From Owenia fusiformis (taxonomy: Eukaryota > Annelida > Polychaeta > Sabellida > Oweniidae), in the NCBI GenBank assembly GCA_903813345.2, contig CAIIXF020000001.1, forward strand, positions 59,909,885-59,973,884: 64,000 nucleotides of DNA, written 5' to 3'. A program made the position numbers and the translations under genes. Below are positions 36,092-61,078 of this stretch, in pieces. Positions within the stretch are counted from its first letter, which is position 1; every line of letters starts with the position of its first letter. Under the pieces are notes generated by a model that did no database searches, was not told the origin of the DNA, and worked only from the letters and a program-made list of their open reading frames with translations.

Positions 36092-39000
36092 ACTGATTCT
36101 CCCTAAGTAGCAAACATGTCTGATGAAGTTAAAGAAGTTGAGAAAAGACCACTAAGTGGTGAAGCTTGTGAAACAAATATCACTAAGAAGCCAAGAACTG
36201 AAACAAATGGAAAACTCAATGACAACAGGTAGATTTGATTCATTGATGCTATTTGAGCTATTGACCTACCAATATTACGGTACAGTATAGAAAACAAGAA
36301 AACAACCAGAGTCTGAATGTAATTCTTAAAATGGGTTTAGCAGGATGATTTTTTAAATGTGTGTACATAACACTAATATACATTACATATAAACGGCAAC
36401 ATATAAAGGTTCTACATCTAATCACTCAATGCATGCTGTCTTAGAAAAAAACATAATAGAAGACCACTATATTTTCTGATTGTAGATGCGTATACCTGGA
36501 CTATAATGCAACAACCCCTCTTGATGTTGAAGTGCTGCATACCATTAGCAACACCCTACAGCATGCATGGGGGAATCCTAGTAGTAAAAGTAAACCAGGT
36601 AAAGGTCAAGGTAAAAGATCAAGGTCAAAGGTCATTTGACAAAGAATCACGACATCAAATCTGACTATTAAACCTGAAAATAAAAATTGGACGATACAAA
36701 TCAGTTTATTCAAAACAAAGGAGCGTATCAGAACATATTGATTTACAAAAATGTCAGTAACTTCATGTACATTAAATAGTGGAGGAAATTAGGCTAGAGG
36801 CAGTAGAGGGGCCACTTTAATTTGTTCAGGGTATAATGATTCAAACAAAATCAAAGGATTTTTTTTAGGTGTGACACCTGCACATAAATATGAGATGTTT
36901 GCTGATTTGTATAATTGCAAAATGTTAAGAAAATGGAAATTATTGAGACGGATAGCAATGTATCGTCACCAAATATCTAAACTGCATTGGTATATGTGGG
37001 TTTGACTTTTGGTATCAAATGAAAACAATCAATATTGTACTTTATTTCCTATTTGTGAGTGATTTCTGATGTTCCATTGATGACATTTCTAAATGTAGGC
37101 ATTGAGGCAGCTAAGGCAGTGGCTGTTGCTAGGCAACAAGTGTCAGAAATGATTCAGGCAATACCAAATGGTAAGTCAGCATATATCATGTACATCATCA
37201 TCATATATCTCATGTACATTTAGGTTAAGATGCAGAAATAGCATTGAACAAGGGATATTCCCTCTTCCAATACTATTGCTGAAACAAAATTTTGACATTT
37301 TTTCTTCACTTACTCTCAACTCATCTTGTTTTTTAACATAAACAAATCTGGTACTTTTCTGAAATAGAAAATAAGTAATATTCTGGTGTTGAAATTCTGC
37401 TTCGCCTAAATGCATGCTTACAAAGTTGCTTTCAGATGTTTATCTACCTATATTTCTTTTATTACTTTCAGACATTGTGTTTACATCTGGAGGAACTGAG
37501 GTTAGTATGTTTTATAATGTATACACAGTATATGAACAGTAAAACCTGTCTAATCCAAACACTACAGCGATCAGCCAAAAGTGTTTATTCCATAATTATA
37601 GGATTCAATGGGAGATAGAAAAATTCGAAATTGGTAAACCATCTGTCTTCAGAAATTTTATAACCTGAAATACTTATGGTAAATGTACTTACTTTGGAAA
37701 GGTAGCAGGCCTTATAAAGCCAAGAATAGACTGGAAAAAGAAAAGACTTCAACCTTCAGGAAGCATACATTTTATATTGTTAGTACCTCAGTGTAAATAC
37801 TCGCATCTGATTGGTAAATTAGCGGTCAACATTTTTGCCTGTACCTCACCTGTGCATCATGGGATATCATATTATTGACCGCGTATGTTACTGTACTACA
37901 CTTGTGAATTATGGGGAATATGACGTCACAATGTTTACAGAAAACAAAATTGAAGACGGACATTTTGTAAACGTTGATGAAAGTGATATTTTGACTTTGC
38001 TAGACGGCATATAGCAAAAATACAAATAGAAACGCAAAATTAACATTAATTTACTACAGAGAGTCTAGCTACCACTGTCTTCTGATTTTCTTAACAAATT
38101 ATTGCTGGCGTGGTTCGGAGAAAAGATTGTGAAATGAAGCCATGATTGATGACTGTCGTCTATATGTGTATTATTAGTTTCTTCTGACTAACAAAACAAT
38201 TGTAGACCTCTCCATTCGGTCAACCGTCAAAATCATATACCTCGACTGTAAACCTTGAAACTACTGTTGACCTCGACCTTCGGTCTCTGTCAACAGTAGT
38301 TTCTCGGTTTACAGTCTCGGTATACAATTTTGCCGGTTGACCTCTGGAGAGGTCAAAAATTGTATATTGTTTCTTCCAGTCTAACAACTTGGTGTTGCAT
38401 ACTGCATTGAAACACTTCCAGAAAACATACTTTTTATATTGTTTCTTCCAGTCTAACAACTTGGTGTTGCATACTGCATTGAAACACTTCCAGAAAACTT
38501 ACATTTTATATTGTTTCTTCCAGTCTAACAACTTGGTGTTGCATACTGCATTGAAACACTTCCAGAAAACATACATTTATATTGTTTCTTCCAGTCTAAC
38601 AACTTGGTGTTGCATACTGCATTGAAACACTTCCAGAAAACATACATTTTATATTGTTTCTTCCAGTCTAACAACTTGGTGCTGCATACTGCATTGAAAC
38701 ACTTCCAGAAAACATACATTTTATATTGTTTCTTCCAGTCTAACAACTTGGTGTTGCATACTGCATTGAGACACTTCCAGAAAACTTACATTTTATATTG
38801 TTTCTTCCAGTCTAACAACTTGGTGTTGCATACTGCATTGAAACACTTCCAGAAAACATACATTTTATATTGGTTTCTTCCAGTCTAACAACTTGGTGCT
38901 GCATACTGCATTGAAACACTTCCAGAAAACATACATTTTATATTGTTTCTTCCAGTCTAACAACTTGGTGTTGCATACTGCATTGAAACACTTCCAGAAA

Positions 39001-42000
39001 ACATACATTTTATATTGTTTCTTCCAGTCTAACAACTTGGTGTTGCATACTGCATGGAAACACTTCCAGAAAACATACATTTTATATTGTTTCTTCCAGT
39101 CTAACAACTTGGTGTTGCATACTGCATTGAAACACTTCCAGAAAACATACATTTTATATTGTTTCTTCCAGTCTAACAACTTGGTGTTGCATACTGCATT
39201 GAAACACTTCCAGAAAACATACATTTTATATTGTTTCTTCCAGTCTAACAACTTGGTGTTGCATACTGCATTGAAACACTTCCAGAAAACATACATTTTA
39301 TATTGTTTCTTCCAGTCTAACAACTTGGTGTTGCATACTGCATTGAAACACTTCCAGAAAACATACATTTTATATTGTTTCTTCCAGTCTAACAACTTGG
39401 TGTTGCATACTGCATTGAAACACTTCCAGAAAACATACATTTTATATTGTTTCTTCCAGTCTAACAACTTGGTGTTGCATACTGCATTGAAACACTTCCA
39501 GAAAACATACATTTTATATTGTTTCTTCCAGTCTAACAACTTGGTGTTGCATACTGCATTGAAACACTTCCAGAAAACATACATTTTATATTGTTTCTTC
39601 CAGTCTAACAACTTGGTGTTGCATACTGCATTGAAACACTTCCAGAAAACATACATTTTATATTGTTTCTTCCAGTCTAACAACTTGGTGTTGCATACTG
39701 CATTGAAACACTTCCAGAAAACATACATTTTATATTGTTTCTTCCAGTCTAACAACTTGGTGTTGCATACTGCATTGAAACACTTCCAGAAAACATACAT
39801 TTTATATTGTTTCTTCCAGTCTAACAACTTGGTGTTGCATACTGCATTGAAACACTTCCAGAAAACACATTTTATATTGTTTCTTCCAGTCTAACAACTT
39901 AGTGTTGCATACTGCATTGAAACACTTCCAGAAAACATACATTTTATATTGTTTCTTCCAGTCTAACAACTTGGTGTTGCATACTGCATTGAAACACTTC
40001 CAGAAAACATACATTTTATATTGTTTCTTCCAGTCTAACAACTTGGTGTTGCATACTGCATTGAAACACTTCCAGAAAACATACATTTTATATTGTTTCT
40101 TCCAGTCTAACAACTTGGTGTTGCATACTGCATTGAAACACTTCCAGAAAACATACATTTTATATTGTTTCTTCCAGTCTAACAACTTGGTGCTGCATAC
40201 TGCATTGAAACACTTCCAGAAAACATACATTTTATATTGTTTCTTCCAGTCTAACAACTTGGTGTTGCATACTGCATTGAAACACTTCCAGAAAACATAC
40301 ATTTTATATTGTTTCTTCCAGTCTAACAACTTGGTGCTGCATACTGCATTGAAACACTTCCAGAAAACATACATTTTATATTGTTTCTTCCAGTCTAACA
40401 ACTTGGTGTTGCATACTGCATTGAAACACTTCCAGAAAACATACATTTTATATTGTTTCTTCCAGTCTAACAACTTGGTGTTGCATACTGCATTGAAACA
40501 CTTCCAGAAAACACATTTTATATTGTTTCTTCCAGTCTAACAACTTGGTGTTGCATACTGCATTGAAACACTTCCAGAAAACATACATTTTATATTGTTT
40601 CTTCCAGTCTAACAACTTGGTGTTGCATACTGCATTGAAACACTTCCAGAAAACATACATTTTATATTGTTTCTTCCAGTCTAACAACTTGGTGTTGCAT
40701 ACTGCATTGAAACACTTCCAGAAAACATACATTTTATATTGTTTCTTCCAGTCTAACAACTTGGTGCTGCATACTGCATTGAAACACTTCCAGAAAACAT
40801 ACATTTTATATTGTTTCTTCCAGTCCAACAACTTGGTGTTGTATACTGCATTGAAACACTTCCAGAAAACATACATTTTATATTGTTTCTTCCAGTCTAA
40901 CAACTTGGTGCTGCATACTGCATTGAAACACTTCCAGAAAACATACATTTTATATTGTTTCTTCCAGTCCAACAACTTGGTGTTGCATACTGCATTGAAA
41001 CACTTCCAGAAAACACACCCAGAGTCTTCTGATATGAAGCCCCATTTCATCACCAGTAATATAGAACATGATGCAGTCAAACTTGTACTGGAACATTATA
41101 AGGAAGAATATGAAGCAGGTTTTTAGAGTTTTCTTGTCAACAGCTAACGTGTTAAAATATGGGATTATTTCGAGCCATCATACAGGATGAAGTATAAATA
41201 AATGAAACTAGAAAAGAAGATGTATTATCATAGTCCTCACTTGTTTCTGTAATTAATCATGTGCCAGTGTCATTTAATCATTAAATGGCTCAAGGCAATT
41301 AAGGGGGGATAAGCATTGGCATTCCACAATTCACTTGCGATGTAATCATTTCCAGTGATGTCATAATATGTACCAGTTCCACAATCTACTTCAATGCTGT
41401 CTGCTTTACAGAGGTGACATATGTGTCAGTCTCACACTCCACTTCAATGTATGTTTTTCAGAGGTGACATATGTGCCAGTCTCACACTCTACTTCAATGT
41501 TGTCTGTTTTGCAGAGGTGACATATGTGCCAGTTTCACATTCTACTTCAATGTTGTCTGTTTTGCAGAGGTGACATATGTGCCAGTTTCACATTCTACTT
41601 CAATGTTGTCTGTTTTCCAGAGGTGACATATGTACCAGTCTCACACTCTACTTCAATGTTGTCTGTTTTGCAGATGTGACATATGTGCCAGTTTCACATT
41701 CTACTTTAATGTTGTCTGTTTTCCAGAGGTGACATATGTACCAGTCTCACACTCTACTTCAATGTTGTCTGTTTTGCAGATGTGACATATGTGCCAGTTT
41801 CACACTCTACTTCAATGTTGTCTGTTTTGCAGAGGTGACATTTGTGCCAGTTTCACACTCTACTTCAATGTTGTATGTTTTCCAGAGATGTCCAATGTGC
41901 CAGTCTTACACTCTACTTCAATGCTGTCTGCTTTGCAGAGGTGACATAGGTACCAGTTTCACACTCTATTTCAATGTTGTCTGTTTTGCAGAGGTGACAT

Positions 42001-44807
42001 ATGTGCCAGTTTCACACAACACTGGAGCAGTTGAGGTCCAAGGAGTCCTAGATGCAATAAAGTCCAACACTTGTCTCATTTCCATTATGCTGGCAAACAA
42101 TGAAACTGGAGTTATTCAGGTACACACGTATGATATTTCCACTCATCTATTTCTCTATCAAAATTGGTTTCAAGGTTTTCTTTATGTTAAGGCGTTTAAA
42201 TGTTATAATTAATTGCCTCCAAGACTTGTAAATTACAATATTATTATTTGATGTACATTTGTATTTATAATTTTATTATTAATTAATATATTTTGCAGCC
42301 AGTTCAGGAGATCTGTGAAAGAGTTCGTAGTCTTCCTCAATATTCATCTATTCTCCTCCACACTGATGCTGCTCAGGCTATAGGCAAAATAGAAGTCAGT
42401 GTAAGATCCCTGCCTGTAGACTATCTCACAATTGTTGGTCATAAGGTAGGGAAACTATCTCACAGTTCCTTGGGTTCAACTTATAACATAGATCACTTTT
42501 ATACAAAAATCCCAAACTGATGCAATAATTTGCTTCATAGATGAGCAATATTAACTGCAATTTATTAAGAATCCTTGCAATTATCAAAATGGCTACCTTT
42601 TGTAAATGGTTACATGTACCTCCCAATGCCAGCTAAGTATGCATGGTATTTTTTATTTCCAGTTTTATGGTCCAAGAATAGGAGCATTATATTTTAGGTC
42701 TAGCAAGACGCCAGAGCAAGCGAGTGCTCCTCTCTACCCAATGTTTTTTGGAGGCGGACAAGAGAGAAACTATAGACCAGGGTAAGTCATTGCTAATAGT
42801 AATACATGTACATGTACATGTGTTGAGGTGTCACATCATAGAGCCTTTGATATAATTCAAGGGTCAAACTCTTTTTAGACAAGTTATGTTGTCGACATTA
42901 TTTACATTACTTGTACATCTTTTTGTTAACGAGAGAAATAAATGGAAACATAAAAAACTGTTTTAGAAAAATAAACTCATAGTCTATCAATATATTTCCA
43001 GTGAAAGAAATACTGCCATGGTTTCCTGCCAAAATCTGATTAACCAATATCTGATTATCCAAGTTATCTGGTTATAAGTGTGCCTGTAAAGTAATGACAA
43101 ATTGAAATGATGGACATTGATTGAAAGCTATGTAACACCCTTGTCGCTATATTTACAGCACTGAAAACACAGGCATGATAGCTGGTCTAGGAAAGGTGTG
43201 TACATACATGTATATGTGTTTTTATATATAATTTATAATTGAAATTGGCCAGGAAGAAAACTCTTGTTTTTGGTCAATTTTGTTAATTAACATACTATTT
43301 AATCTGAGGCTTAATATTCCATGAAATTCCTGTCATCTACTAAACTACTCATTCTGATACTCATAGCGTCTTTCTGTTTCACCTGAAATATCTCAGGGCT
43401 GAGAAGAAGTGAGATGTCATGGTTTATCATGATGTAAACTACTACATGTATATCTATTCCATGAAGAAAACAAGAGAGACAAATAATTATCAAGTCAGAT
43501 TTGTAGATGATTTCTTACTCATTTATGTACCTGCAGCTTTTAATCAAAAATCTTGTTCCATTTTCAGGCTTGTTATCTAGTAACAAAAAACCTAGAAAAC
43601 TACGCTAAACACATGAGAGAACTGAGGAGTTATTTTGAATCTAAACTGAGGGTAATTATGATAAAAATTTATATAGTAGCCGGGACAAGTCATACACCTC
43701 TTATTTCCTGATAATGGGGCAATTCTAGCAGTTATTTGAGTGCTTGCTCACATACTGGCTTCTGTACATGAATTTTTACTTATGTATTTCATCTATTTCA
43801 TATAATTTATTAGTTAAAATGAAATAATAAAATCATTTTTGTATGTTTTTTTTCTAGAGTGTATATGGTGAAAGACTTCATATTAATGGAAAGTTTACAG
43901 AAAGTGAGAGGTTGCCAAACACGAGTAATGTTTCCATAGAAGGGATGCATTTGAAAGGTACGGTACAACAGAGATAGCTGACTCATAAGTTTAGATCTCT
44001 TGATTAATTTTGATTCAGAAATCGAAATCGTTGACATTTTAAACATGAAGTTTTACTAGTTGGGGTCCCTTGTTTAAAACATTGAGTCGTGGAAATCATA
44101 CCAGCATCCTACCCCAAAGCTCTAGAAACAAAAGAATTACAAAGTAGGCTACTTTAACTGGTTTTGTATCAAAGACATTATTGTTGATTGTTATTCCCCA
44201 GGTTCTGATGTTCTGAGAAACTGTCAGTGCACGCAAGCCTCAGTTGGAGCAGCCTGTCACTCAGCAACAAAGTAAGCATATATCTGTCAATGAAATCTCT
44301 GTACTGTAGTTAATTCACTAGAGAATAGTACAAGAACTAACTGATGCATGTGATTACTTATATAGTCATACAAACCAAAATAAGGAGAACTTGTCATAAA
44401 ACCACTGAGACGTCAGAAGTGTTCAGAACAGCAAAGGTTAACATTTCAAGGATCTTAAAGAGACTCTTGGGAGAGATTACAAAATTTAGGCTGAGAGAAA
44501 GTGTTCATATTTAAGAGGTGCTCAGATTACAGAGCCGTTTAGGTTACATTTGAGAGATTTTGATGGAGATTTGAAGTTTGAAGACAAATCTATCCCTAGA
44601 CAGGTTGATATTTACAGTTGCAATTATATCATTTATTTTTCTTGCAGATTTTGTGTGTCAAGCATTCTCACAGCAACAGGAATACCAGAACATATTGCTG
44701 CCAATGCAATGAGGTTTAGTATGGGACGTGAAACAACAATGGATGACATTGACACTGTGATTTTTGACATTGTTAAAGCAATTAAGGCTATAGATGCCCA
44801 TTCATGA
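36092..44807 (+). CDS. SCLY: Selenocysteine lyase, complete coding sequence in 13 exons
   Basis: SCLY is a cytosolic PLP enzyme that splits selenocysteine to alanine and selenide for selenium recycling. Exons are 36092-36228 (ATG 36116), 36486-36598, 37099-37170, 37472-37500, 40968-41118, 41992-42119, 42299-42445, 42663-42781, 43159-43195, 43568-43651, 43858-43957, 44202-44271 and 44648-44807. All have GT-AG boundaries and the coding total is 1323 nt, 440 codons plus stop (human 445). Landmarks are [21 protein letters not shown] (PLP phosphate loop, split across exons 4/5), [27 protein letters not shown] (PLP lysine, residue 251), [14 protein letters not shown], and GAACHS (catalytic Cys 383). 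Arrays derived from its own exon edges precede exons 5 and 6 and follow the last exon. The upstream 5' UTR exon was not located. Confidence 0.95.
38205..38354. repeat. Foldback hairpin immediately upstream of the 72-bp array
   Basis: The left arm, starting GACCTCTCCATTCGGTCAAC, pairs with the right arm ending TTGACCTCTGGAGAGGTC. The arms are about 65 bp and the loop is about 17 bases. The hairpin ends at the base where the array begins. Confidence 0.8.
38355..41013 (+). repeat. 72-bp tandem array, 37 copies of SCLY exon 5 acceptor plus exon start
   Basis: The unit joins TTTTATATTGTTTCTTCCAG, a strong 3' splice site, to the first 48 nt of SCLY exon 5 (coding [16 protein letters not shown]). 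Acceptor-like AGs run from 38379 to the authentic one at 40967. The spacing is 72 bp, except for one 71-, one 73- and two 70-bp units; 36 intervals total 2588 bp, which fits. Copies are nearly identical, varying mainly at one GTGTTG/GTGCTG position. The last six decoy acceptors (exon starts 40536, 40608, 40680, 40752, 40824 and 40896) are in frame with exon 5 and contain no stop, so each would add 24 residues per unit. Upstream of the 70-bp unit near 40513 the frame is lost. Confidence 0.97.
41385..42018 (+). repeat. 53-bp tandem array, 12 copies of SCLY exon 6 acceptor plus exon start
   Basis: The unit is TCTGTTTTGCAG followed by AGGTGACATATGTGCCAGTT, the acceptor and start of exon 6. Copies begin near 41407, 41455, 41510, 41563, 41616, 41669, 41721, 41774, 41827, 41880, 41933 and 41986 (the authentic one). 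Because 53 is not a multiple of 3, a read from most decoys meets TGA in the next unit (AGG-TGA). The decoy with exon start 41833, three units (159 nt) upstream, is in frame. It stays open because the next copy has AGATGTCC instead of AGGTGAC. Copies are more diverged than in the 72-bp array. Confidence 0.93.
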
Positions 44808-46660
44808 CACAATAGTTTGATACATTGGACATATTGCTGCCAATGCAATGAGGTTTAGTATGGGACGTGAAACAACAATGGATGACATTGACACTGTGAT
44901 TTTTGACATTGCTCAAGCAATTGAGGCTGTAGATGCCAATTCATGACACGCAATAGTTTGATACATTGAACATATTGCTGCAAATGCTATGAGGTTTAGT
45001 ATGGGACGTGAAACAACAGTGGATGACATTGACACTGTGATTTTTGACATTGCTCAAGCAATTGAGGCTGTAGATGCCAATTCATGACACACAATAATTT
45101 GATACATTGAACATATTGCTGCCAATGCAATGAGGTTTAGTGTGGGACGTGAAACAACAATGGATGACATTGACACTGTGATTTTTGACATTGCTCAAGC
45201 AATTGAGGCTGTAGATGCCAATTCATGACACACAATAATTTGATACATTGAACATATTGCTGCCAATACTATGAGGTTTAGTACATGTAGTATGGGACGT
45301 GAAACAACAATGGATGACATTGACACTGTGATTTTTGACATTGCTCAAGCAATTGAGGCTATAGATGCCCATTCATGACACGCAATAATTTGATACATTG
45401 AACATATTGCTGCCAATGCAATGAGGTTTAGTATGGGACGTGAAACAACAATGGATGACATTGACACTGTGATTTTTGACATTGTTCAAGCAATTTAGGC
45501 TATAGATGCCCATTCATGACACGCAATAGTTTGATACATTGAACATATTGCTGCAAATGCTATGAGGTTTAGTGTGGGACGTGAAACAAACAATGGATGA
45601 CATTGACACTGTGATTTTTGACATTGCTCAAGCAATTGAGGCTGTAGATGCCAATTCATGACACACAATAATTTGATACATTGAACATATTGCTGCCAAT
45701 ACTATGAGGTTTAGTACATGTAGTATGGGACGTGAAACAACAATGGATGACATTGACACTGTGATTTTTGACATTGCTCTAGCAATTGAGGCTGTAGATG
45801 CCCATTCATGACACAAAATAATTTGATGCATTGAACATATTGCTGCCAATGCAATGAGGTTTAGTATGGGACGTGAAACAACAGTGGATGACATTGACAC
45901 TGTGATTTTTGACATTGTTAAAGCAATTAAGGCTATAGATGCCCATTCATGACACAATAGTTTGATACATTGAACATATTGCTGCCAATGCTATGAGGTT
46001 TAGTATGGGACGTGAAACAACAATGGATGACATTGACACTGTGATTTTTGACATTGTTAAAGCAATTAAGGCTATAGATGCCCATTCATGACACAATAGT
46101 TTGATGCATTGAACATATTGCTGCCAATGCTATGAGGTTTAGTATGGGACGTGAAACAACAATGGATGACATTGACACTGTGATTTTTGACATTGCTCTA
46201 GCAATTGAGGCTGTAGATGCCCATTCATGACACACAATAATTTGATACATTGAACATATTGCTGCCAATGGTATGAGGTTTAGCGTGGGACGTGAAACAA
46301 CAATGGAAGACATTGACACTGTGATTTTTGACATTGTTAAAGCAATTGAGGCTGTAGATGCCAATTCATGACACACAATAGTTTGATGCATTGAACATAT
46401 TGCTGCCAATGCTATGAGGTTTAGTATGGGACGTGAAACAACAATGGATGACATTGACACTGTGATTTTTGACATTGTTCAAGCAATTAAGGCTGTAGAT
46501 GCCCATTCATGACACAAAATAGTTTGATGCATTGAACATATTGCTGCCAATGCTATGAGGTTTAGTATGGGACGTGAAACAACAATGGATGACATTGACA
46601 CTGTGATTTTTGACATTGTTAAAGCAATTAAGGCTATTGATGCCCATTCATGATACACAC
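44690..46660 (+). repeat. ~142-bp tandem array, 14 copies of the SCLY terminal exon 3' end
   Basis: The unit runs from GAACATATTGCTGCCAATGC through GATGACATTGACACTGTGAT to the TTCATGACAC stop region and a short tail with TTTGATACATTGA. The core word occurs near 44741 (authentic), 44880, 45023, 45165, 45315, 45455, 45596, 45747, 45889, 46028, 46166, 46307, 46449 and 46588. Extra copies follow the authentic stop codon, so they would lie in the 3' UTR. Most keep the reading frame of the last 38 codons. Copies near 45287 and 45713 share a 9-bp ACATGTAGT insertion, which indicates higher-order duplication. Confidence 0.95.

Positions 46661-48046: not shown

Positions 48047-48048
<2 letters not shown>
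46661..48048. other. Intergenic region downstream of SCLY
   Basis: A short tandem with the word GACATTTGGTATGGCATT lies at about 46718-46777. No exon was recognised, and the small ORFs look like chance. The polyadenylation site of SCLY is not clear; AATAAA near 47114 is one candidate. Confidence 0.35.
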
Positions 48049-48081
<33 letters not shown>

Positions 48082-48276
48082 TAAAAATATTTATTCTCTA
48101 AATTAAAATCAAATACATAATAACACTTGACACTTTAAATAAGTGTATCAGCGTGAAAACATTTAAATATTAACCTGAGTCACATGGAAATGAGAAAAAA
48201 AGACCAATTAAGAATATTTACTCAGTAAAAAGAGAATAAAATTGATAACAATATATAAAATCTACATATATGTTTG

Positions 48277-51200
48277 TCAGTAATTCAGTTCATCATATGT
48301 TGATGTCATATGGATTTTAAAATTCTTTTTAAAACAGTAAATGGAAGGTGATGTTTTCAAAGAAGTTGGCAGATTATTCCAAAGCTGAGCACCTGAATAT
48401 TTTATTGAATGTTGACCTATACTTGTTCTAAATTTTTTCATGTGAAGACAATTTTGGAATCTTGTCTCATGTTCGTGAAATATTAAATTTGGAGTAAAAT
48501 AATTTTCAAATATGTCAAAAGGAAAGCCATCGGGTTTTGTTGTGTATTGATAAAGAAATTTTGCAACTTCAAGCTTATGTATGTCAAAAATATCTAGAAA
48601 ATTGAGTTGTTTAAAAAGAGGTGGACTGTGTGCTAAAAAGTCAGAATTTGTGATTATTCTCACTGCACGTTTTTGTAACAAAAGCAATTTATTCAAAAAG
48701 GTTTTACATGCATTACCCCATATGATGTTGCAATAGTTCAATTGTGATAATATAAGTGAATTATAAATGGTAATCATGGTTTTTGTATTCAATTTATATT
48801 TAATCTTTCCCAGAATACCAATAATTTTTGATATTTTATGTATAACCTTATTTATGTGTTCATTCCATTTTAATTTACAATCAATTGTTACTCCCAGAAA
48901 ATTTGTATGCATTACTCTATTAAGAATATTACCCCCTATTTTTATATTAAAATCTTGATTTTCATCAATATTTAACTTTGATCTTGTAAATAGCATATAA
49001 TTTGTCTTGTCTATATTTAAAGAAAGTTTATTTGATTTGAACCATTCTAATGTCTTTTCCATTTCTAAATTTACATTTCTATATAGATCATGAAGATTTT
49101 TGTTAGAACATAAGATATTTGTATCATCTGCGAAAATAGTAAATTTAAGAATATTTGAAACCTTATGTAAATCATTTATATAAAGAATGAATAAGATGGG
49201 GCCTAAAACAGACCCTTGAGGTACACCACAAGTGATAATATTTTCTTCAGATAGAGTGTTGTTAAAAGAAGTAATGATTTTTCTATCCGATAAATAGCTT
49301 TCGAACCAATTTTTTGCAACATTGCGAATTCCAAAATTATCAAGTTTTTTTAGAAGAATTTCATGATTTACTGTATCGAAGGCTTTCGATAAATCTAAAA
49401 ATATTCCAATAGCATGAGTTGAGCTTTTATCTAAAGATATCCTCACTTCTTCCAAGAAGGAGAGGATTGCCATATAAGTTGAATAATGTTTTCTAAAACC
49501 AAACTGATTTTTGAATAAAAGTTTGTATGTTTCAATGAATGTTATTAATCTATTTTTCATGATCTGTTCTAAGAGTTTAGAAAAGACACTAAGTAGAGAT
49601 ATGGGTCTATAGTTTGAAAATTTTGAAGTGTTTCCTTTTTTAAAAAGTGGGATAACTTTGGCTGTTTTCAACTTAGTGGGAAAAACACCTGTATGGATAG
49701 ATAAGTTTGCTATATGAACAAATGGTAAAAGTAAGTTATTTCTTGCGTGTTTAACTACTATTGGTTTGAATTCATCTAGGCCTGGTGAGCAATCTTTTAA
49801 AACTGACATTAAATTTTCGATTTCATTCTTACTCACAGGAGTAAGTTCTAAAGAAGATTCATTGATTTCCATAAATGTTAAAGGGGACGTTTTTGAACTT
49901 ATCTTTGATGCTAATTTAGGTCCAACATTAGAAAAAAATCTGTTAAAATGATTAGCAATATCTTTTCTATCAGTCAAAGTATCATCTCCATCATAAAATT
50001 TATCTGGAAAAACTGAATCACATTTTTTGCGGTGAAGTAAATCATTTATAACTGACCAAGTATTCTTGATATTATTGCTTGTTTCAGTAAATCTATCACA
50101 AAAATATTTCCTTTCTGCTTTACGGATTAATTTATGGAGTTTGTTTCGAAAAGTTTTGTATTCAGCTTGATTCTGTTTCGTTGGGTGTTTCAAAGTATTT
50201 CGATAAAGTTTATTCTTCTGTTTCACAGATGTTAGTATACCATGTGAGAGCCAAGGCTTAATTGGGTTCTTGTGAATTTTTGTATTTTTGACTTTTACAG
50301 GGAAATGTTCATCATATTTTCTACTAATTTTGTCTGCAAATAAATTATAAGCCACATTTACATCAACCTTTTCATTAATTATACCAGTCCAATCTATATC
50401 TTTCAATGAATCACTAAAATTATTAATTGCACTCAATGGATATTTCCTAAAAGTGATTTGTTTATTTTCACAAACATTTTGATGGTGTGATGTAAGGGCA
50501 AAGATAGGATGGTGATCAGAAATGGGAAATGAAAGAAGACCACTTTTGATTACATTATTTGAATTAGAAAAGATATTATCAATAAGCGTAGCACTTTTTT
50601 CTGTTATTCTGGTAGGTTTAAAAATCAATGGGTTGTAAGATTGGGAGTATAATAGATTAAGAAAATTCAACGTTTGTGCATCACTTTCAGTTTTAAGTAA
50701 ATCAATGTTGAAATCACCCATTATAAAAGAAATTTTATGTTCCCTATCAATTTTAGAAAGTAGACTCTCAAAACTTTCAAGAAAAGATGCCATGTCTGTA
50801 TTTGGTGGTCTATATATTATAGTAATAACCATATTTTTCTCATTTTTTCTAGGAATTTCAATAGATAGTGATTCACATGCTTTATAATCTAATTTGAGGT
50901 CATCCCTATGTTTAAAGTCAATGCCTTTTAAAATATGAAGTGCAACACCACCCCCTGGTCTATCTTTCCTAGAGTTAAAAATACTATTATAATTAGAATC
51001 ATTTTCCTCATAAATAGGCTCTAAGTTTGATGTAAGCCATGTTTCAGTCATACCAATAATTGAAAGATTATTTTTTAACAATTGCAACATATTATGGAAT
51101 TTCCATTGATTTTTAGATACACTCCTCATGTTGATGTGTAACATACTAAGATCATTTGATTTTTGTAAGTGATAGTTAAATTGATCAATATTATTGTAGT

Positions 51201-51414
51201 TGCACTGATTAACTGATTGATTTATTTCAAAATCATGTGCAGTGAGAGGTTCATCCTTCTGTCTATTTTCTAAAGTCAGTGGATTAAAAATAAGACTTTC
51301 ATAATCATTTATTGGAATTAAAGAAGGTGCTAAGTCAAGAAATTCAATTGGTGTTGCCTCATAAAATGGAAACATCTGCCATTTCATAACCTCTATATTT
51401 CTAGACATAACCAA
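48277..51414 (-). CDS. LINE ORF2: AP endonuclease and reverse transcriptase
   Basis: 1045 codons, uninterrupted. The N-terminal endonuclease shows LHINMRSV, GMTETWL, YRPP, MGDFNIDL, TLIDNIF and SDHHPI, covering the expected catalytic Asn, Glu, Asp and His positions. The reverse transcriptase follows with NYRPISLLSVFSKLLE, FLDLSKAFDTVNH, GVPQGSVLGPILFILYINDL and FADDTNIL (the catalytic Asp pair). A C-terminal region contains LGVTIDCKLKWNEHI and a tail ending STYDELNY. The true start may be downstream of the listed ATG, since the endonuclease begins near residue 90. All motifs look intact, so recent activity is plausible. Confidence 0.93.
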   Translation of the reverse strand: MVMSRNIEVMKWQMFPFYEATPIEFLDLAPSLIPINDYESLIFNPLTLENRQKDEPLTAHDFEINQSVNQCNYNNIDQFNYHLQKSNDLSMLHINMRSVSKNQWKFHNMLQLLKNNLSIIGMTETWLTSNLEPIYEENDSNYNSIFNSRKDRPGGGVALHILKGIDFKHRDDLKLDYKACESLSIEIPRKNEKNMVITIIYRPPNTDMASFLESFESLLSKIDREHKISFIMGDFNIDLLKTESDAQTLNFLNLLYSQSYNPLIFKPTRITEKSATLIDNIFSNSNNVIKSGLLSFPISDHHPIFALTSHHQNVCENKQITFRKYPLSAINNFSDSLKDIDWTGIINEKVDVNVAYNLFADKISRKYDEHFPVKVKNTKIHKNPIKPWLSHGILTSVKQKNKLYRNTLKHPTKQNQAEYKTFRNKLHKLIRKAERKYFCDRFTETSNNIKNTWSVINDLLHRKKCDSVFPDKFYDGDDTLTDRKDIANHFNRFFSNVGPKLASKISSKTSPLTFMEINESSLELTPVSKNEIENLMSVLKDCSPGLDEFKPIVVKHARNNLLLPFVHIANLSIHTGVFPTKLKTAKVIPLFKKGNTSKFSNYRPISLLSVFSKLLEQIMKNRLITFIETYKLLFKNQFGFRKHYSTYMAILSFLEEVRISLDKSSTHAIGIFLDLSKAFDTVNHEILLKKLDNFGIRNVAKNWFESYLSDRKIITSFNNTLSEENIITCGVPQGSVLGPILFILYINDLHKVSNILKFTIFADDTNILCSNKNLHDLYRNVNLEMEKTLEWFKSNKLSLNIDKTNYMLFTRSKLNIDENQDFNIKIGGNILNRVMHTNFLGVTIDCKLKWNEHINKVIHKISKIIGILGKIKYKLNTKTMITIYNSLILSQLNYCNIIWGNACKTFLNKLLLLQKRAVRIITNSDFLAHSPPLFKQLNFLDIFDIHKLEVAKFLYQYTTKPDGFPFDIFENYFTPNLIFHEHETRFQNCLHMKKFRTSIGQHSIKYSGAQLWNNLPTSLKTSPSIYCFKKNFKIHMTSTYDELNY

Positions 51415-52675
51415 AATGATAATAGATGCTAAATGAATGAACTGAATTAATTTGATTTGTTCTGCTCAAAACAAAAATGCACCATATTAGGTACATATTC
51501 CAATAAGGCAGGTTTTAAAGAAGTATGAGTAGTTCCACAGTAAATTGGATGGTAAATTATTTTAAGCAATATATCCTGTTTTTTAGCAGACTATGATAAC
51601 AATTTGACATTAAAAACATGTTAAAATATACATTCAACCACCTGAAAATAAAAATGCACATATCATGAAAATGTGTCTAATAATGTTCCTTTCAATGGTA
51701 TTTTACAGTTCTACATTTCTATAATAGTCATTTTAGTAAAATCTCATGGGAGAGTTTCCTTGAAATCAATCAATGTGTGCATGTTCATTTCCGATGAAAG
51801 ACAATCTATCAAATAATGAATACTAATGTATAGCATATGTACAAGTTAATCTTTATTTACAAACAATATTTGCATTCAAACACCTGAAAACAAAAATCAC
51901 CCATTGTAAATTCTAACTGTAATATTTCTTCTAACACAATAGTAGTTTGACAGTTAAGGCATTTCTACCATGTACTCAAGTAAAAAGTCTCAAACAAGAT
52001 TGTGATAAAATCAATCCAGAGAGAAGTTTATCCAAGGGTGTGAAAATAAATGTATTTAATATAAATGTATAAATATGCACTAGATTGGTAAATAAAGTGA
52101 ATCAGTATCAGAAATTATACCAATACAAAAACACTTCATTAATCATGAATCCTAAGTTAAGTGCATAATTAAAAGAGACCAAGTGTATTAGTTTGGTATG
52201 AGAAATGTTTGAGCATGTTGTTTAATCATGCAAAAAAGGACTCAAAATGCAAACATTAAAGTGACGAAGAAAACGAGTGTGCAATTTAAAAAGCTTACAT
52301 CTGATTTGCAAAAAATCAAATTATGCATGTTGATTGATCACGCGAAAATTAATATACATAACGAGATTAAATTGAGTGTCAAATCGTAATCACTTTCAAA
52401 CACATTCTACAACAAGGATTAAAATCCAAAAACTCAATTCAATCCAAACTCGATTTAATCTCAAAGGTTAAAATCTGAAAGAAACTGCATGCACAAACTA
52501 AACTATAACAAAACAGTCATTGTAATACTTAGGAATTAAAAATTGTTTGGCAATTTCTAAAATACATGCTTTTCAAAAGTATAAATAGATTTCAAGCTGA
52601 ATCAGAAATTGTGACTCATCACACCAGAATACCCATATGTGGGGACTGATCATATTCAATTGTAGAATTTGGTAG
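51415..52675 (-). other. Spacer between LINE ORF1 and ORF2
   Basis: About 1.26 kb of AT-rich sequence with no ORF. Words such as CACCTGAAAA(C/T)AAAAAT recur near 51640 and 51880. It may be part of the element or a later insertion. Confidence 0.4.
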
Positions 52676-53884
52676 TTAATTTTTTATTCCACTTGTATTT
52701 ATAATTGCGTTTATTGCGGCTATCAGTTTGTGGGTATGTGGTTTTGGGGGTACACCCCTAGAAAATTTAGTAAGCACGACAATCGCATTTTTGATGTTCT
52801 CATCACAAAGTGCTTTTAATATTGCTTTCCCCGTTCCAAAAAGTCCATCGTCATCATACCCCTCAATGATATTTCCATTTTCCCCAGGTGCTCTGTAAGC
52901 ATATGAATTGTGGGGGGCACGGGCTATTGTGTTAATTGTGTTCAGCTTCGATAGAACTGATGCAGCACCATCCACTGATGTTACTGATGATGCGTGTGCT
53001 TGAACTGTTATCTTATCAGTGTACACAACAGTATGGCTGATATCTTCCTCAGGTATTTTAACATATGAGGCTATCGTGGATGTGAGAGGATTTGAGTTAA
53101 ATTTCATATCTATTTTACTTCCACCTGCGTAGAGGACATCCCGATTTAGAATGATTGTTTTTGGCTCCTGTGATTGACTTTTCATTTCCTTCATTTTCGG
53201 CACCATAGCACTGCGTCTTTCCCTCATTTCATCTGGAAGTTGGTCAGAGACTGATACGCTAGAAGACTTTAAATTCGATACATATTTCATCATAGTCAGT
53301 TTACTCCGCCTGTCCACAAATTTAACCACTATAGGCCTGTTTGAGCTTTGTGAACTCCCAATCGGGTGGGCGACATCAAGTTTTATAGTTCCATTTGGGT
53401 TTTGTTCAGATGCAATCAACTGCGATGGGATTTTCATGTCATTTACCATAACATCTATTATCTTTTGCTCACAGTCATGTATAGCTGGTTTTTTGACATT
53501 ATAGAAAATAGAGTTCATTTTCATTGATCGATACTTTATATCTTCCATTTGTTCAGACATAAATGCCATTTTAGACTCCATTTTTTCGAAACGACCTTCC
53601 AAAATACCAACATAGTCTTTAAGATGTTCATTTTCTGACTTAAGAGAGGTAATAGTCTTACTTACATCATCCACTGAATCTTCAATCCAGGATATTGATT
53701 CTTTAACATTCGAGATTGACTCCTTGTTATTTGTCACAATTTCCTCGATATGCTTGACTGTAGTAATTAACGACTTCATATCCATAGTCTCAACATCTAT
53801 TTTAGACTTTTTAGGCTCTGCGTCCGTTTGATTTCCAGGAGAACTGGGAATTCTGTCCCTTTTATTCGCTTTTGATCTTGTCAT
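52676..53884 (-). CDS. LINE ORF1 nucleic-acid-binding protein
   Basis: 402 codons starting MTRSKANKRDRIPSSPGNQ. A basic N-terminus is followed by a long coiled coil (about residues 35-125). Next comes a region with NSIFYNVKK, RPIVVKFVDRRSKLTMM and KTIILNRDVLYAGGSK, which has the character of the RRM-like domain of L1-type ORF1 proteins. The C-terminus is a separate region with YAYRAPGENGNIIEGYDDDG. It acts as an RNA chaperone in related elements; that role is from the family, not from this sequence. It is in the same orientation as ORF2. Confidence 0.8.
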   Translation of the reverse strand: MTRSKANKRDRIPSSPGNQTDAEPKKSKIDVETMDMKSLITTVKHIEEIVTNNKESISNVKESISWIEDSVDDVSKTITSLKSENEHLKDYVGILEGRFEKMESKMAFMSEQMEDIKYRSMKMNSIFYNVKKPAIHDCEQKIIDVMVNDMKIPSQLIASEQNPNGTIKLDVAHPIGSSQSSNRPIVVKFVDRRSKLTMMKYVSNLKSSSVSVSDQLPDEMRERRSAMVPKMKEMKSQSQEPKTIILNRDVLYAGGSKIDMKFNSNPLTSTIASYVKIPEEDISHTVVYTDKITVQAHASSVTSVDGAASVLSKLNTINTIARAPHNSYAYRAPGENGNIIEGYDDDGLFGTGKAILKALCDENIKNAIVVLTKFSRGVPPKPHTHKLIAAINAIINTSGIKN

Positions 53885-53950
53885 ATTGATGTCTGATACA
53901 AGTTGATCAATCCCTAAATTTCAATATGGCTCTTTGTGTGTTCAAAATAT

Positions 53951-55367: not shown

Positions 55368-57057
55368 AGATACTGTTGTCACAAATGGCCGTCATAACCG
55401 TCGCTTCAACTCTAATCACGTTGGTCCTCGTTTCATGGGACTTTATCTGTGCATGTGTTAAGCTTGTGTGATGATATATTATAATCATGGGCTTGAAAGA
55501 TTGAAAGCCCATGATTATATGAAATCCCAATTTCAGCTCTGTCAACCCTCACACATTAGGCTTGATTGTCACGCATTTGCTGGAAAAATAGAAATCACAT
55601 ATCAATTTAGCGTGAATGATCAAATATCACGCAAATCACGCATTATGTTGATATTTTTAAAATCATTTTTTTTATAAAAGGCTGATATGGTAAAAATCCA
55701 AATGGCGAAAAATAGCGAATGCATTCCGTTCGGTCTTTGCACACGATTTCCGTTTATGTCATGCATTTGGTCCGAAATATATGTTTATATCTAATCACTC
55801 ATTTGTTTCGAAAATATTTATACCTTACCCTACCCTACTGAATTTGAAATAATTTACAAAGACAACGGTAAATGGTAAGATGTGACGATGGACTATGACC
55901 TTGGATGTATTGTATTGGAACATTGGAAAATGACAATGGTAAATAGACGTAGTATCATCAGGACTAAACAATTGTCTCAGACTGGATTCTAGGGGGAGCG
56001 CGCGTGTCTCCGCCACTGATACTACAGGCCAGGGGCCATTCTAAAAACTAACGGGCGATGGCAAATTTCATTAATCTAAAAATATTTCTGAGATTGCTTG
56101 AAAAAATTTGGACATGAAATGTCAAACCGTCAAACTGCAAAGCACCTCATGGCGCTGTAAGCTAAGGTGGTCTGGGGGGACTTGCCCCCTCAAAATTTCT
56201 TTTTTGAAATTAAGACCCGGTACCCTCTCTAGTTCAACAAGTTTAACCTACATGTAGTCATATCTTGTGGCCTGCGACTAGGTTTAACTTCCGTGCATAT
56301 TCCGCCAACCACGCGGAAAATTAAATGGTCTCTTGAAAGCTCAGTATTATCAAAATGGCAATAAGGCTGAAATCATGTCTATAAACTGCCATTGACACAC
56401 TGAACGAATAAGTTCACTTAAGCAAGTCGCGTGTCAGACAAAAATACCCACATTTAACTGTAAATGAATATTTAATGCAAAATGTTACGCGGAATCGTTT
56501 GATGGTAGGTGTTGCACCAGTTGCATCAGTGTGTTGCATTCTGTAGTCTCTCTGTCAAAAAATTACCCTTTGCATTCGTTTGACTTCACTTCTTAAAAGA
56601 GAGCTCCGTCTTCACTCTTTCAAACTAAAATAAACCTGTGAACTCACCGCGCCAATCAGTGTTCGTCGGCCAAATTTGACCGACGTTCTATATATGGTCA
56701 TTCCTTCTGACGTCATCGTTGAGCTCGGAATTGACCAATGACATGCGCATATTTAATTAGCACGCATTTGGCGTATGTTTCTTCAAGCTCGCTGACTGAT
56801 GGAAGAAAGGTCAGCGCGTAGGTCAGAAGTGATTTATTACACAAACTGTCACTGGTACCCATCGTGGGGGCGGGGCTACTAAACTGTAATATGGTCTCTA
56901 CTAGGCAGAGTGTAGTTTAACTAGACTCTGCGTGCAGGGTATCAAAAAATTAATATACATGCCCATTTCTATTGACATTGAGACATATAAAACATATAAC
57001 TGTTTTATATGTCTCTGATTGACAGTGAGTCACCTGACCTTTCATCATTTGTAATAT
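55368..57057. other. Presumed upstream region of the scramblase gene
   Basis: No exon was recognised. A short perfect hairpin lies at about 55483-55516 (ATAATCATGGGCTT and its complement). A CRE-like palindrome TGACGTCA occurs near 56709, and CCAAT words occur in both orientations around 56655 and 56735. A 5' UTR exon of the scramblase gene is expected, because its first coding exon starts after an AG acceptor, but the exon was not identified. Confidence 0.35.
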
Positions 57058-57892
57058 CACAGGCTGGTATCGAAAGATTTGTCCGCTGTGACGGAGCATG
57101 CTATTTTTCATAAAAATACTAAGAATGCTTCACGATTTATTTTTTAACTCATATATGTTTCGTAATATCAAAGATAATTACTTACTCCATGCAATGGATA
57201 TATCATTTGCGTGTAACCTTCACTACTGTTTGAAGTCCAATAACGCTAGGAGTAAAATCTATTGAAAACGGCGCCAGAGTATCAAACTCTAAAATGAACC
57301 ATTCCTTTTTTTTAACTTTTTAATGGCATGATATAGTGACACGATAATATTAACATATATTTTCACCATATCTCTGAATGTATTAATGAGATATTAATGC
57401 ATTGGGTCTTTTTAATTTTTTTATAAAAAATAATATTAATATTTTTTGTCCGCTGTGACGGAGCATTTTCACAGTTCACATTTGCAACTGCTCCATCACA
57501 GCGGACAAAAAAATTAAACATTATTTTTTATAAAAGAATTAAAAAGACCAAATACATCAACATTTCATTTATATCTTCATAGTTATGCTGAAACCATGTG
57601 TAAATATTATCGTGTCACTATATGGTGCCATTAGAAAGTTAAACAAGAAATGGTACATTTTGAAATATGATACTCCGGCGCCATTTTCAATAACTTTTCT
57701 TCCCAGCGTAATTGGACTTCAAACAGAAGTGAAAGTTACCCACAAATGATATATCCATTGCATGGAGTAAGTAATTTTGTATGGTATAACGAAAGATATG
57801 AGTTAAAAAATAAATCGTGAAGTATTCTTAGTGTTTTTATGAAAAATAGCATGCTCCGTCACAGCGGACAAATATTTCTATACCAGCCTGTG
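57058..57892. mobile_element. 835-bp foldback element with ~400-bp arms
   Basis: The ends CACAGGCTGG and CCAGCCTGTG are flanked by AATAT on both sides (57053-57057 and 57893-57897), a 5-bp target duplication. The two arms, about 57058-57470 and 57485-57892, are inverted copies over essentially their whole length. The word GTCCGCTGTGACGGAGCA occurs at the outer and inner ends of each arm, four times in all. No ORF is visible. It ends about 60 bases upstream of the first scramblase coding exon. Confidence 0.92.
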
Positions 57893-57959
57893 AATATGCA
57901 CACAAAGGTGGTAGAGTTCATGTAGGTTGATAAGTGTATATCATGTATTTCAGTAAGAA

Positions 57960-60626
57960 ATGTCTGAACCAATGAAGAACCAGCCAGGGCAGCAGCCCCC
58001 TCCCCCTGCCAACTATGGACAACAGCCACCACCCCAAGGCTATGGACAACCTCCACCCCAGGGCTATGCTCAGGCTCCTCCCCCTTACGGACAACCCCCA
58101 CAAGGATATGGACAACCCCCACAAGGAGGCCAACCCCCACAACAAGGCTATGCTTCACCCCCACAAGGCTATGGTCAGCCTCCTCCACAAGGTTATGGTA
58201 GGTGTCATATTTATTAGCTTGCATGTATGTCATACTGTATTTGTCTTTAATTTGGCTCCACTTAATTTGGCGATTTTTATTTTTGGGCTTATTGGCATCT
58301 ATTTAATTTGGCAGCTTTTCAGTGTCCCCAACATCCTCCTGTCCAACAAAATTCAAAATAATCATTGTAAGTGCTGTTCATGAACAATTTCTTCAATATT
58401 TCTTGTTGTTTATATAAATTTCTTCAATATTTTTGTTTCTGTCAATTTAAACGGCCTGGCCATCTTGGTATCTTTCTTATAACTGGAAATGCACCGAACG
58501 AAAAACATGTCAAATTCCCAAGCGCCGATTTAAACGCTTGTCAAATTAAAGACAAATGTATACAGTATATTATTGATCTGTCAGTCTTAATTTCCCAGGA
58601 TCATTGAAATACCAGCACAGTGATTCATGTAACATGTAACATATATGAATATGATATCATATGATCCTGATGGTCTGTTGTCCATAATTGAGTTTATTAA
58701 CAAAACATTATTCTATCACAGTTCAATTGAACTTGTGGATCAAACACTGATTCCACAAATGATGATTTTCTGTCACTAGTCACAACAGTATAAAGTATAT
58801 ATTGATATCATTCCAGCTTATAGTAATGATGTAAAAGCACAACCTTACATTATGTAATAAGACAAGGATTACATAGATTCCACTCTTTATGTTAATATTT
58901 ATTAGACATATTGCTTGCACAATTATTAATTCACATATAGCTAGGCAAGGTATGTCCGATTCCAGCCAATTCGAACAGAGTATTCACATAATGAACAACA
59001 TGTAAAATATGAGTATCAACAAAGCATTTGTTGTCTGTGGCATCATGCAAAGATTTGACGACATATTTGTGGAATGGTTCAGCACACAATGCACTGAGTC
59101 CAAGGCTTAAATCCTTAAACCATACATTCCAGGTCTTTATATTGCATATTAATACATACAGTCCTGTCTTCCAGGTCAGCCACAGTATGGTGTACAGCCA
59201 GGAGGTTATGCAGGCCAGCCAGGTCAGCCAGGTAAACATTTGATATACACATTGGCAAAGATTGCAGGCCCGTAGCCAGGGGGGGTTCGCAGGGTTCGGG
59301 CGAACCCCCCCCCCCCCCCCCCCGGCCAAAAATTCTTTCTAAATCAGGCAGTTTTTCATCATTTTGAGCACTTTTCAAGTGATTTTAGCCATATTTGGGC
59401 CAAAATTGTCAAATGTGAACCCCCCTGGAAATTTTTGAAAACTGAACCCCCCCCCCCCTTGGCAAATACTGGCTACGGGCCTGTGCAACAATCTATCTTT
59501 GATACAACATGGGAAATATATTGATTCATTTTGAAGAATAAGAATGACCTCATCAAGGAATTAATGTTTTTATTGAAAAATACAGGTTATTTAATGGGAG
59601 GGATGAAATATGAATTTATTTCGAGGGAAAATATGATATTGGCCAAGGAAAAATCATGTTGACCAAGGGCGATTCAAGGAAAAATTCATATTCCATCATG
59701 ACCATCAATAACCTATTTATTCTATAATAATTTTCTAAATCTTATTTATTTTTGCTGATACAGGATCCAATACAGGATCCAATATGGGATTTTGGCTGAT
59801 ATGGGATCCGATTCAGGATTTTTTGAATATCAATTCTATTCCTGTTATTATCCCGGGGAAAACATGTTATTATGGAATAATCTATATAAACATTGAAGGC
59901 AGTATTGCAATATTATAGAAGAACAATGTTAAGCTCTTAAATGCCACATGGTCAAAGACTGAACAGGTACACAAAGAAATATATATTTGTATTATTTTCA
60001 GGTTTACTAAATCATTTTGAATTGATTGATATGTTGTACATGTAGGTGTGCCTCCTATGGGTGGTGCCCCTGGGGGAGTTCAGTGGATGGCACGCCCAGA
60101 GGGACTCCCAGGCTGTCCCCCAGGACTAGAGTACCTCACCCAGATAGATCAGATCCTTGTACACCAGCAAGTAGAACTATTAGAAAGTAAGTACATGTAC
60201 ATTCTATTTCACATATCAACACATGAATAATCTATAATTGTTGCCTGCTCCAAGAAATAATTGAAGACTAACCAAAATTACGATATGGAGGAGAGGTCAT
60301 CGCCTCATTATGGAATATGAAACATGATAGGCTAACTTCAGTGAATTCTTGGTAATTAATAACGTTTTAACAGACATTGAAATATTGACCCGGTCCCGGC
60401 CCCTAACTGTTTGGAAGATAAAAACATATAGCACTGATCTATGATGTATGATACGATACTTTTTAATTCAGTGATGACTGGGTTTGAGACTCAGAATAAA
60501 TACCAGGTGAAGAACTCTTTGGGACAGCAGGTCTATTTTGCTAATGAGGAGAGTGATATGTGTATGAGACAATGCTGTGGACCTCAGAGAGGGTTTACCA
60601 TGCACATAACAGACAACCTGGGTCAG
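57960..60626 (+). CDS. PLSCR: Phospholipid scramblase, 5' four coding exons (partial)
   Basis: Scramblases of this family move phospholipids across the plasma membrane bilayer in a calcium-dependent way. Coding exons are 57960-58197, 59175-59231, 60046-60186 and 60472-60626, all with GT-AG boundaries and matching phase. The N-terminus is a proline-rich region with repeated QGYGQPP blocks (possible WW/SH3 ligands). It is followed by [38 protein letters not shown] and a cysteine cluster CMRQCCGP, the position that is palmitoylated in mammalian PLSCR1, then [10 protein letters not shown]. The remaining exons (beta-barrel end and C-terminal helix) are not in the window. The last exon here is followed by four decayed copies of its own 3' end and donor. 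Confidence 0.93.
59265..59483. mobile_element. Foldback MITE, second copy of the CAGGCCCGTAGCCAG family
   Basis: The ends CAGGCCCGTAGCCAG and CTGGCTACGGGCCTG are perfect inverted repeats with long G and C runs inside. It lies in a scramblase intron. Its interior is homologous to 3246-3457 (for example AAAAATTCT and the GTTCGC words), but inverted. No clear target duplication was seen. Confidence 0.8.
59584..59716. repeat. Imperfect hairpin repeat
   Basis: GGTTATTTAATGGGAGGGATGAAATATGAA pairs imperfectly with TTCATATTCCATCATGACC and then AATAACC. The internal words TTGGCCAAGG and TTGACCAAGG recall the hairpin at 23964-24133. It is followed by a short ACAGGATCCAAT tandem near 59761-59785. Confidence 0.5.
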
Positions 60627-61078
60627 GTAAGGAACAGTGATCTACTTTGCTAATGAGGAGAGTGATATGTGTATGAGACAGTGCTGTTGACCTCAGAGAG
60701 GGTTTACCATGCACATAGCAGACAACCTGGGTCAGGTAAGGAACAGCAGGTCTACTATTTGCTGAGTAGAGTGATATGTGTATGAGACAATGCTGTGGAC
60801 CTCAGAGAGGGTTTACCATGCACATAACAGACAACCTGGGTCAGGTAAGAGATAGCAGGTTTACTTTGCTAATGTGGAGAGTGATATGTGTATGAGACAG
60901 TGTTGTGGACCTCAGAGATGGTTTACCATGCACATAACAGACAATCTGGGTCAGGTAAGGAACAGTGATCTACTTTGCTAATGAGGAGAGTGATATGTGT
61001 ATGAGACAATGCTGTGAACCTCAGAGATGGTTTACCATGCACTTAACAGACAACTTGGGTCAGGTAAGGAACAGCAGG
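60518..61078 (+). repeat. ~109-bp tandem array, five copies of a scramblase exon end plus 5' splice site
   Basis: The unit starts TCTATTTTGCTAATGAGGAG, continues through ATGCTGTGGACCTCAGAGAG and ends CTGGGTCAG followed by GTAAGGAACAG. Donor-like GT sites follow exon ends at 60626 (authentic), 60735, 60844, 60954 and 61063, a spacing of 109-110 bp. Read-through past the authentic donor meets TAA within ten codons, so decoy donors would truncate the protein. The copies carry substitutions and small indels; the donors themselves are conserved. A LINE fragment begins immediately after the last copy. Confidence 0.93.

Follow-up and report, generated by a model that had tools for sequence, protein, structure and literature searches.

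Tandem arrays that repeat the edges of functional exons are found in two genes of a 64,000-nt stretch of the Owenia fusiformis genome (contig CAIIXF020000001.1; hereafter the window), and arrays of the same kind recur at exon edges in a 300 kb sample of this genome. We conclude that they are probably mirage-type minisatellites, in which tandem duplication has no preferred boundary and the splice site closest to the exon is the one used. Arrays in the window were called with Tandem Repeats Finder (TRF), and their copies were then itemised singly. As the original prediction had stated, four arrays with unrelated units lie at an exon boundary or coding end in two genes on the same strand; TRF, the listing of copies and matches to selenocysteine lyase (SCLY) and scramblase all bear this out. 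Three span a splice boundary and the fourth a coding end:

38359–41015, plus strand: 72-bp array, 37.0 copies, 98% match, every unit comprising a 3′ splice site and the start of an SCLY exon
41366–42017, plus strand: 53-bp array, 12.4 copies, 88% match, with the acceptor and start of the next SCLY exon
44688–46659, plus strand: 141-bp array, 13.9 copies, 92% match, with the C-terminal coding end, the stop and the start of the 3′ untranslated region
60524–61086, plus strand: 109-bp array, 5.1 copies, 88% match, with scramblase exon and the donor GTAAGG

The unit of the 72-bp array consists of 24 bp of intron end with its 3′ splice site followed by 48 bp of SCLY exon, and that of the 53-bp array of 27 bp of intron end followed by the first 26 bp of the SCLY exon after it. 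In both, the used acceptor is that of the last copy, no other copy running on into the exon. The 109-bp unit is made up of 103 bp of scramblase exon and 6 bp carrying the donor; here the first copy alone comes after the exon's own acceptor, and its donor (after position 60626) is the one used. The 141-bp unit, which starts 40 bp inside the last SCLY exon, repeats the coding end and has no splice site, and of its copies the first alone lies in frame. The functional exons at these arrays are:

40968–41118, plus strand: SCLY exon started by the last 72-bp copy (translation; alignment to rat SCLY, 3a9x, across the junction)
41992–42119, plus strand: SCLY exon started by the last 53-bp copy (translation, exon finder, alignment to 3a9x)
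44648–44807, plus strand: last SCLY coding exon, with stop TGA at 44805–44807 (translation, alignment; missed by the final setting of the exon finder)
60472–60626, plus strand: scramblase exon with the first 109-bp copy as donor (Pfam Scramblase, E 1.3e-19; exon finder score 16.5)

Eleven joined exons of the SCLY gene yield an uninterrupted selenocysteine lyase of 364 residues, and the predicted protein aligns with rat SCLY (E 4.5e-116) through both affected acceptor junctions, as far as residue 361 of 364. In the scramblase gene the Pfam match spans the entire exon, and the support that it gives is for that exon, not for the junction after it.

Two of the arrays are confined to one locus in the genome search, which returned a single place for the 53-bp array and a single locus for the 141-bp array. 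With the 72-bp array as query, the matches listed elsewhere (40 of 789 candidates scored) involve only the end of a transposon-like insertion. This element of 581 bp (37782–38362, no strand assigned), flanked by a 9-bp target duplication TATATTGTT, sits in the first 72-bp copy; its left flank looks by eye like the 72-bp unit, and its right end matches at least 40 other places at 94–99% identity. We reject a transposon origin of the arrays, the 53-bp and 141-bp arrays being confined to single loci and the transposon-like piece being an insertion into the first 72-bp copy.

A simple sequence of events could produce such arrays. A short stretch of gene, some 50–140 bp long and with no preferred boundary, would be duplicated in tandem, and the array would then grow, probably by unequal exchange. 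Duplication would occur throughout gene bodies; arrays within exons would persist only when the frame is kept, and intronic or edge-spanning arrays would persist because their extra copies land on the non-coding side. The spliceosome would take the site beside the uninterrupted exon, namely the last acceptor or the first donor, and at a coding end the first stop would serve. Since exon definition pairs an acceptor with a donor across the exon body, the nearest copy would be expected to win.

The sample comprised 30 stretches of 10 kb fetched regardless of arrays: 18 random picks centred on helicase-domain exons, nine random positions and three stretches added later. With a unit of 40–350 bp and a minimum TRF score of 150, the first 27 stretches (270 kb) contain 41 arrays, which occupy 8.5% of the bases; across all 30 there are 46. 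Exons were predicted with a purpose-written finder, trained first on exons of SCLY and of helicases and afterwards on its own output, which in the last counted round placed 192 exons above score 8, compared with 33 on reversed sequence. At its final setting it recovers 10 of the 11 exons of SCLY, itself a member of the training set, at a score of at least 6, and misses the last; it also places four spurious low-scoring exons (3.0–6.0) on copies of the 53-bp array.

A curated test was restricted to 22 gene bodies, which span 139 kb and contain 178 predicted exons with 356 edges; the eight of the 30 loci without a confident gene (L013, L020–L025 and L029) were left out. Of the 46 TRF arrays, 21 lie outside the gene bodies used, and the remaining 25 become 24 when two in L027 are merged; 10 are at exon edges, 12 are intronic and two are wholly exonic. 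Thus 10 of the 356 predicted edges fall inside an array (2.8%; 95% confidence interval (CI) 1.5–5.1%). Edge arrays occur in eIF4A3 (two), SMARCA5, CHD4, DDX3, DDX18 and NRAMP-like genes, and the edge assignments were checked against solved relatives and protein families:

L012, eIF4A3, two edge arrays: alignment runs through the repeated junctions, E 1.1e-213
L015, SMARCA5: alignment runs through the repeated junction, E 9e-182
L027, NRAMP2: alignment runs through the repeated junction, E 1.5e-61
L006, DDX3X: alignment runs through the repeated junction, E 7.3e-71
L018, DDX18: alignment runs through the repeated junction, E 9.8e-91
L003, CHD4: alignment starts 5 residues inside the edge exon, E 8.3e-140
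L002: weak; Helicase_C over a hand-joined junction, E 0.00095, below Pfam's cut-off, and a PDB search missed the edge exon
L026: exon finder alone, score 23.4; a Pfam LRR_9 match enters the edge exon by ∼8 residues
L009: exon finder alone, score 12.1; no family match

In the aligned genes the protein is continuous through ordinary exons and the exon-proximal copy forms the boundary, a pattern that fits normal splicing.

Inspection added two edge arrays to those called automatically: L012 9383–9598, whose exon (score 7.9) falls just below the cut and whose homology is clear, and L027 7301–7955, an array that TRF had split and ended before the used copy. Several candidates were dropped, namely both arrays of L005, which lie in an orphan open frame; L012 112–1329, apparently a dispersed repeat; L013; L017 7454–7972, which starts 50 bp past the donor taken as true; and L023, transposon-like by eye. 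A 76-bp array of 14 copies at L008 2376–3433 starts 4 bp past the donor, does not repeat the GT, and was classed as intronic; its gene, with a Pfam CTE_SPB4 match, is presumably DDX31-like.

The repeated splice sites that are not used, here called decoys, are for the most part intact. They were recognised by likeness to the used site, at least 16 of 22 bases being required for acceptors and at least 15 of 20 for donors, a threshold at which decayed sites are under-counted. In 13 edge arrays we recognised 100 decoys, of which 98 retain GT or AG. All 36 decoy acceptors of the 72-bp array keep AG, with a mean score equal to that of the used site, and the four recognised decoy donors of the 109-bp array are likewise intact, with an in-frame stop ahead of each. 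In 12 of the 13 arrays the decoys score on average no more than 0.4 below the used site, the exception being L002 (6.0 against 8.9). Use of an intact decoy would introduce a stop in 83 of the 98 cases; the other 15 stay in frame. As the frame is open through the exon-proximal copy, the choice of splice site must in effect depend on position.

The decoy copies appear to evolve as non-coding DNA. Among 86 copies from 12 arrays, their exonic parts differ at 172 of 4330 positions (4.0%) and their intronic parts at 103 of 2292 (4.5%), a count to which L027, with no decoy copy found, contributes nothing and L002 a single copy; it is this equality that leads us to regard the decoys as behaving like non-coding sequence. 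The curated test includes two arrays lying entirely within exons, both in L007; their periods are 81 and 54/63/108/189, all multiples of 3, as purifying selection on the reading frame would leave them. Edge-array units include 53, 109, 94, 91, 112, 82, 137 and 55 bp. Long in-frame arrays whose units are multiples of 3 are seen in coding exons at L007 816–1113 and 1339–2284, in a gene that looks RIG-I-like by eye; at L005 1473–3656 another long in-frame array occupies the orphan frame, with TRF units that are again multiples of 3.

The tandem repetition of the four window arrays is certainly beyond chance, and their location at edges, taken within the window alone, exceeds chance only weakly. 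If each of its arrays is reduced to a single unit, the SCLY body shrinks to ∼4 kb and is exon-dense, so that its three arrays had chances of 0.37, 0.29 and 0.61 of hitting an edge, and 0.064 of doing so together. More generally, we placed single units at random in their own genes, outside exon interiors, and found that a random unit strikes an edge ∼24–27% of the time in the sampled exon-dense genes, at odds with the premise of the original prediction, in which random duplication would rarely overlap exon edges four times. These figures, with the high proportion of sequence held by arrays, favour the view that no location is special and that abundant arrays and dense exons overlap by chance, helped by the tendency to notice such cases. 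So does the uncurated overlap of the 41 arrays when only the highest-scoring exons are admitted (score 12: 8 arrays against 4.8 expected, P 0.10). We hold this account to be conceivable but doubtful, because the curated data depart from it. Ten of the 22 non-exonic arrays span an edge where 5.3 are expected (P 0.019; 0.021 in a repeat run), or 5.9 with a laxer exon list (P 0.042), an overall excess of 1.7–1.9-fold; among arrays of at least three copies, a cut chosen post hoc, the count is 10 of 16 against 4.0–4.3 (2.3–2.5-fold, P 0.0014–0.0028). The mean distance from an array to the nearest edge is 83 bp, compared with 216 bp expected (P 0.002), and the uncurated overlap at lower exon scores gives 14 against 6.4 at score 8 (P 0.002) and 10 against 5.5 at score 10 (P 0.03). 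The sample supports the suggestion of a genome-wide abundance of such arrays in this lineage. The enrichment that was to be sought by intersecting repeats with exon edges is found there with predicted exons, but in the helicase loci alone it is not significant (8 of 19 against 4.8–5.3, P 0.07–0.12), and the excess loses significance without L026 and L027, which are random picks. We conclude that the excess at edges is probably real but modest.

The same excess raises the question of whether the exon edges are what starts or drives the arrays; repair close to splice junctions, transcriptional pausing and R-loops are conceivable routes. Both the counts and the distances given above point in this direction, as does the greater homogeneity of edge arrays relative to intronic ones. 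Against it, where the edge falls in the unit is compatible with a uniform distribution (exonic fraction 0.24–0.94, mean 0.56, n = 13; Kolmogorov–Smirnov test against uniform, P 0.40), and an edge that may lie anywhere within the unit argues against breaks at the junction itself. Acceptor arrays outnumber donor arrays by nine to four, which is not a significant preference (P 0.27); the helicase loci fall short of significance, as noted; and the excess could stem from missed exons or from insertions that remove arrays from intron interiors. Seeding directed by splice junctions is therefore possible but unproven, and edges as the driving force seem to us unlikely. That the repeated sites are themselves functional, for instance in triggering mRNA decay through regulated splicing or in varying protein length, we consider very unlikely. 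The near-complete integrity of the decoys, their scores, mostly like that of the used site, and the 15 that stay in frame would suit such a role, as would the rarity of changes in their core splice dinucleotides (2 of 172 altered, against ∼4% elsewhere). Young, homogenised copies are, however, expected to be intact, the recognition rule favours intact sites, the genes and units are unrelated, and the exonic parts of the decoys diverge like the intronic parts. Collapse or expansion of copies during assembly is the least credible explanation. An array of 37 copies at 98% identity is indeed hard to assemble, and its true copy number is uncertain, but 36 copies of the 72-bp unit comprise 11 different sequences, and arrays recur at many loci with differing divergence.

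We thus return to boundary-free duplication with use of the exon-proximal site as the probable explanation, against which several observations must be set. A neutral account leaves the excess at edges unexplained. Copies within edge arrays are more alike, at a median of 95%, than those within intronic arrays, at 88% (P 0.024). Fewer than three copies are found in six of the 12 intronic arrays but in none of the 10 edge arrays (P 0.015), all of which have more than three; a uniform process predicts otherwise on both counts. Faster loss of arrays from intron interiors would make edge arrays the older class, so that their greater homogeneity gives some scope for array growth favoured near exons. 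The scarcity of change in the core dinucleotides also weighs on this side, although the copies share ancestry and we claim no constraint. For two of the 10 edge arrays (L009 and L026) the edge exon is backed by the exon finder alone, and the preference for the exon-proximal splice site is one that we infer from the reading frame. These points leave some room for a stronger proposal, to which we give little credence: exon neighbourhoods in this lineage would actively promote array growth, near-identical splice sites would be lined up at perhaps a few percent of edges, and accurate expression would rely on an unusually strict exon-proximal rule.

Other repeats and duplicated exons were noted in the window and the sample. 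Two further window arrays with units of 40–350 bp, at 119–1002 and 9915–10362, have no assigned gene. They appear to belong with minisatellites of 145–162 bp found also at L001 9524–10000, L012 112–1329, L017 1–732 and L021 7585–8058, which by eye have in common a AAAATGGC-like motif in either orientation and apparently form a dispersed repeat family separate from the exon-edge arrays. Downstream of the 109-bp array are open frames that look by eye like reverse transcriptase. On the minus strand, 48277–51465 and 52676–53920 hold a long non-long-terminal-repeat (non-LTR) retrotransposon frame (endonuclease and RVT_1) and an upstream frame with a UPF0029 domain (E 3.8e-9), a domain that seems unusual in such an element. 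Also on the minus strand, two similar predicted exons (EEWKERLT...) at 23069–23202 and 26590–26746 are perhaps a local duplicate; we take them to resemble the beginning of methionine sulfoxide reductase B. In L011, two near-identical successive exons of 164 bp (654–817 and 1337–1500), in a gene that by eye is SMARCA4-like (VKGLQWLVSLYNN...LADEMGLGKT), may be spliced in a mutually exclusive manner. Two predicted exons of L003, at 178–353 and 3172–3299 near the end of the CHD4-like gene, have a AEKDRPLPPLLARVN stretch in common. No tandem partial exons are listed among the family matches, a scan that short exonic parts would escape.

The phenomenon itself is already known; what is new here is an apparently non-cephalochordate host, an estimate of frequency, and an abundance of decoys alongside a site known to function. 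Near-identical and equally strong splice sites next to the functional one amount to a natural experiment on spliceosome choice, in which exon definition predicts use of the copy adjacent to the exon body. Should the 2.8% of the sample (CI as above) apply throughout, the genome would contain very many such loci. They are liable to mislead both gene annotation and short-read estimates of copy number, and they might provide material from which new introns are made. The gain of introns through tandem duplication was reportedly treated by Rogers and by Gao and Lynch 2009, and Zhuo et al. 2007, by its title, is said to concern new alternatively spliced human introns from tandem arrays; the original paper on Adh mirages is reportedly that of Canestro et al. 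2002.

Several known systems resemble the Owenia arrays in part. Intron gain by tandem duplication also involves intragenic duplication with splice signals, and in the potato RdRp case intron–exon structure is copied and a new intron arises (PMC4974935), whereas Owenia keeps the frame and the old exon order and has many copies. No new intron from duplicated splice signals was encountered in the aligned Owenia genes. Internal tandem repeats in human segmental-duplication genes are comparable in that expansion of a minisatellite changes gene structure, but these have units of ∼30 bp, ∼4 copies and recent paralogues (PMC2812944). Among annelids, a study of earthworm metallothionein genes places minisatellites inside an intron (PMC12783039). 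Searches of the open-licence literature turned up no account of exon-edge arrays with many copies from hosts other than amphioxus, and no paper linking Owenia with minisatellites.

The closest counterpart is the amphioxus mirage, so that the original prediction, which knew of no named system for such arrays, does not stand in this respect. Tandem repeats across exon–intron boundaries were described under this name in amphioxus Adh3, and the globin genes BflGb6 and BflGb9 have units of 150–160 bp on the acceptor and donor sides, haplotypes that differ (6 and 3 units) and regular splicing by reverse transcription polymerase chain reaction (RT-PCR); mirages are put forward there as a source of new introns (PMC3087553). 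A second source gives examples of 60 and 108 bp in lancelet PGBD5 and names Adh and TnC as others (PMC3902484). In both accounts mirages are minisatellite-like duplications of an intron/exon boundary, 5′ or 3′, in host-gene sequence, with units of 10 to ∼160 bp and with AG/GT kept in many, but not all, copies (PMC3087553, PMC3902484). The Owenia arrays have the same traits: the unit spans the boundary (in 10 further cases in the sample), acceptors and donors are both repeated, the units are unrelated and AG/GT is kept in most of the recognised decoys. They differ in that the amphioxus mirages are reported there from single cephalochordate genes with RT-PCR and haplotype evidence, whereas the Owenia arrays are known from the sequence of one assembly, in which they affect 10 of 356 sampled edges, reach 37 copies in the window and also include a coding end.

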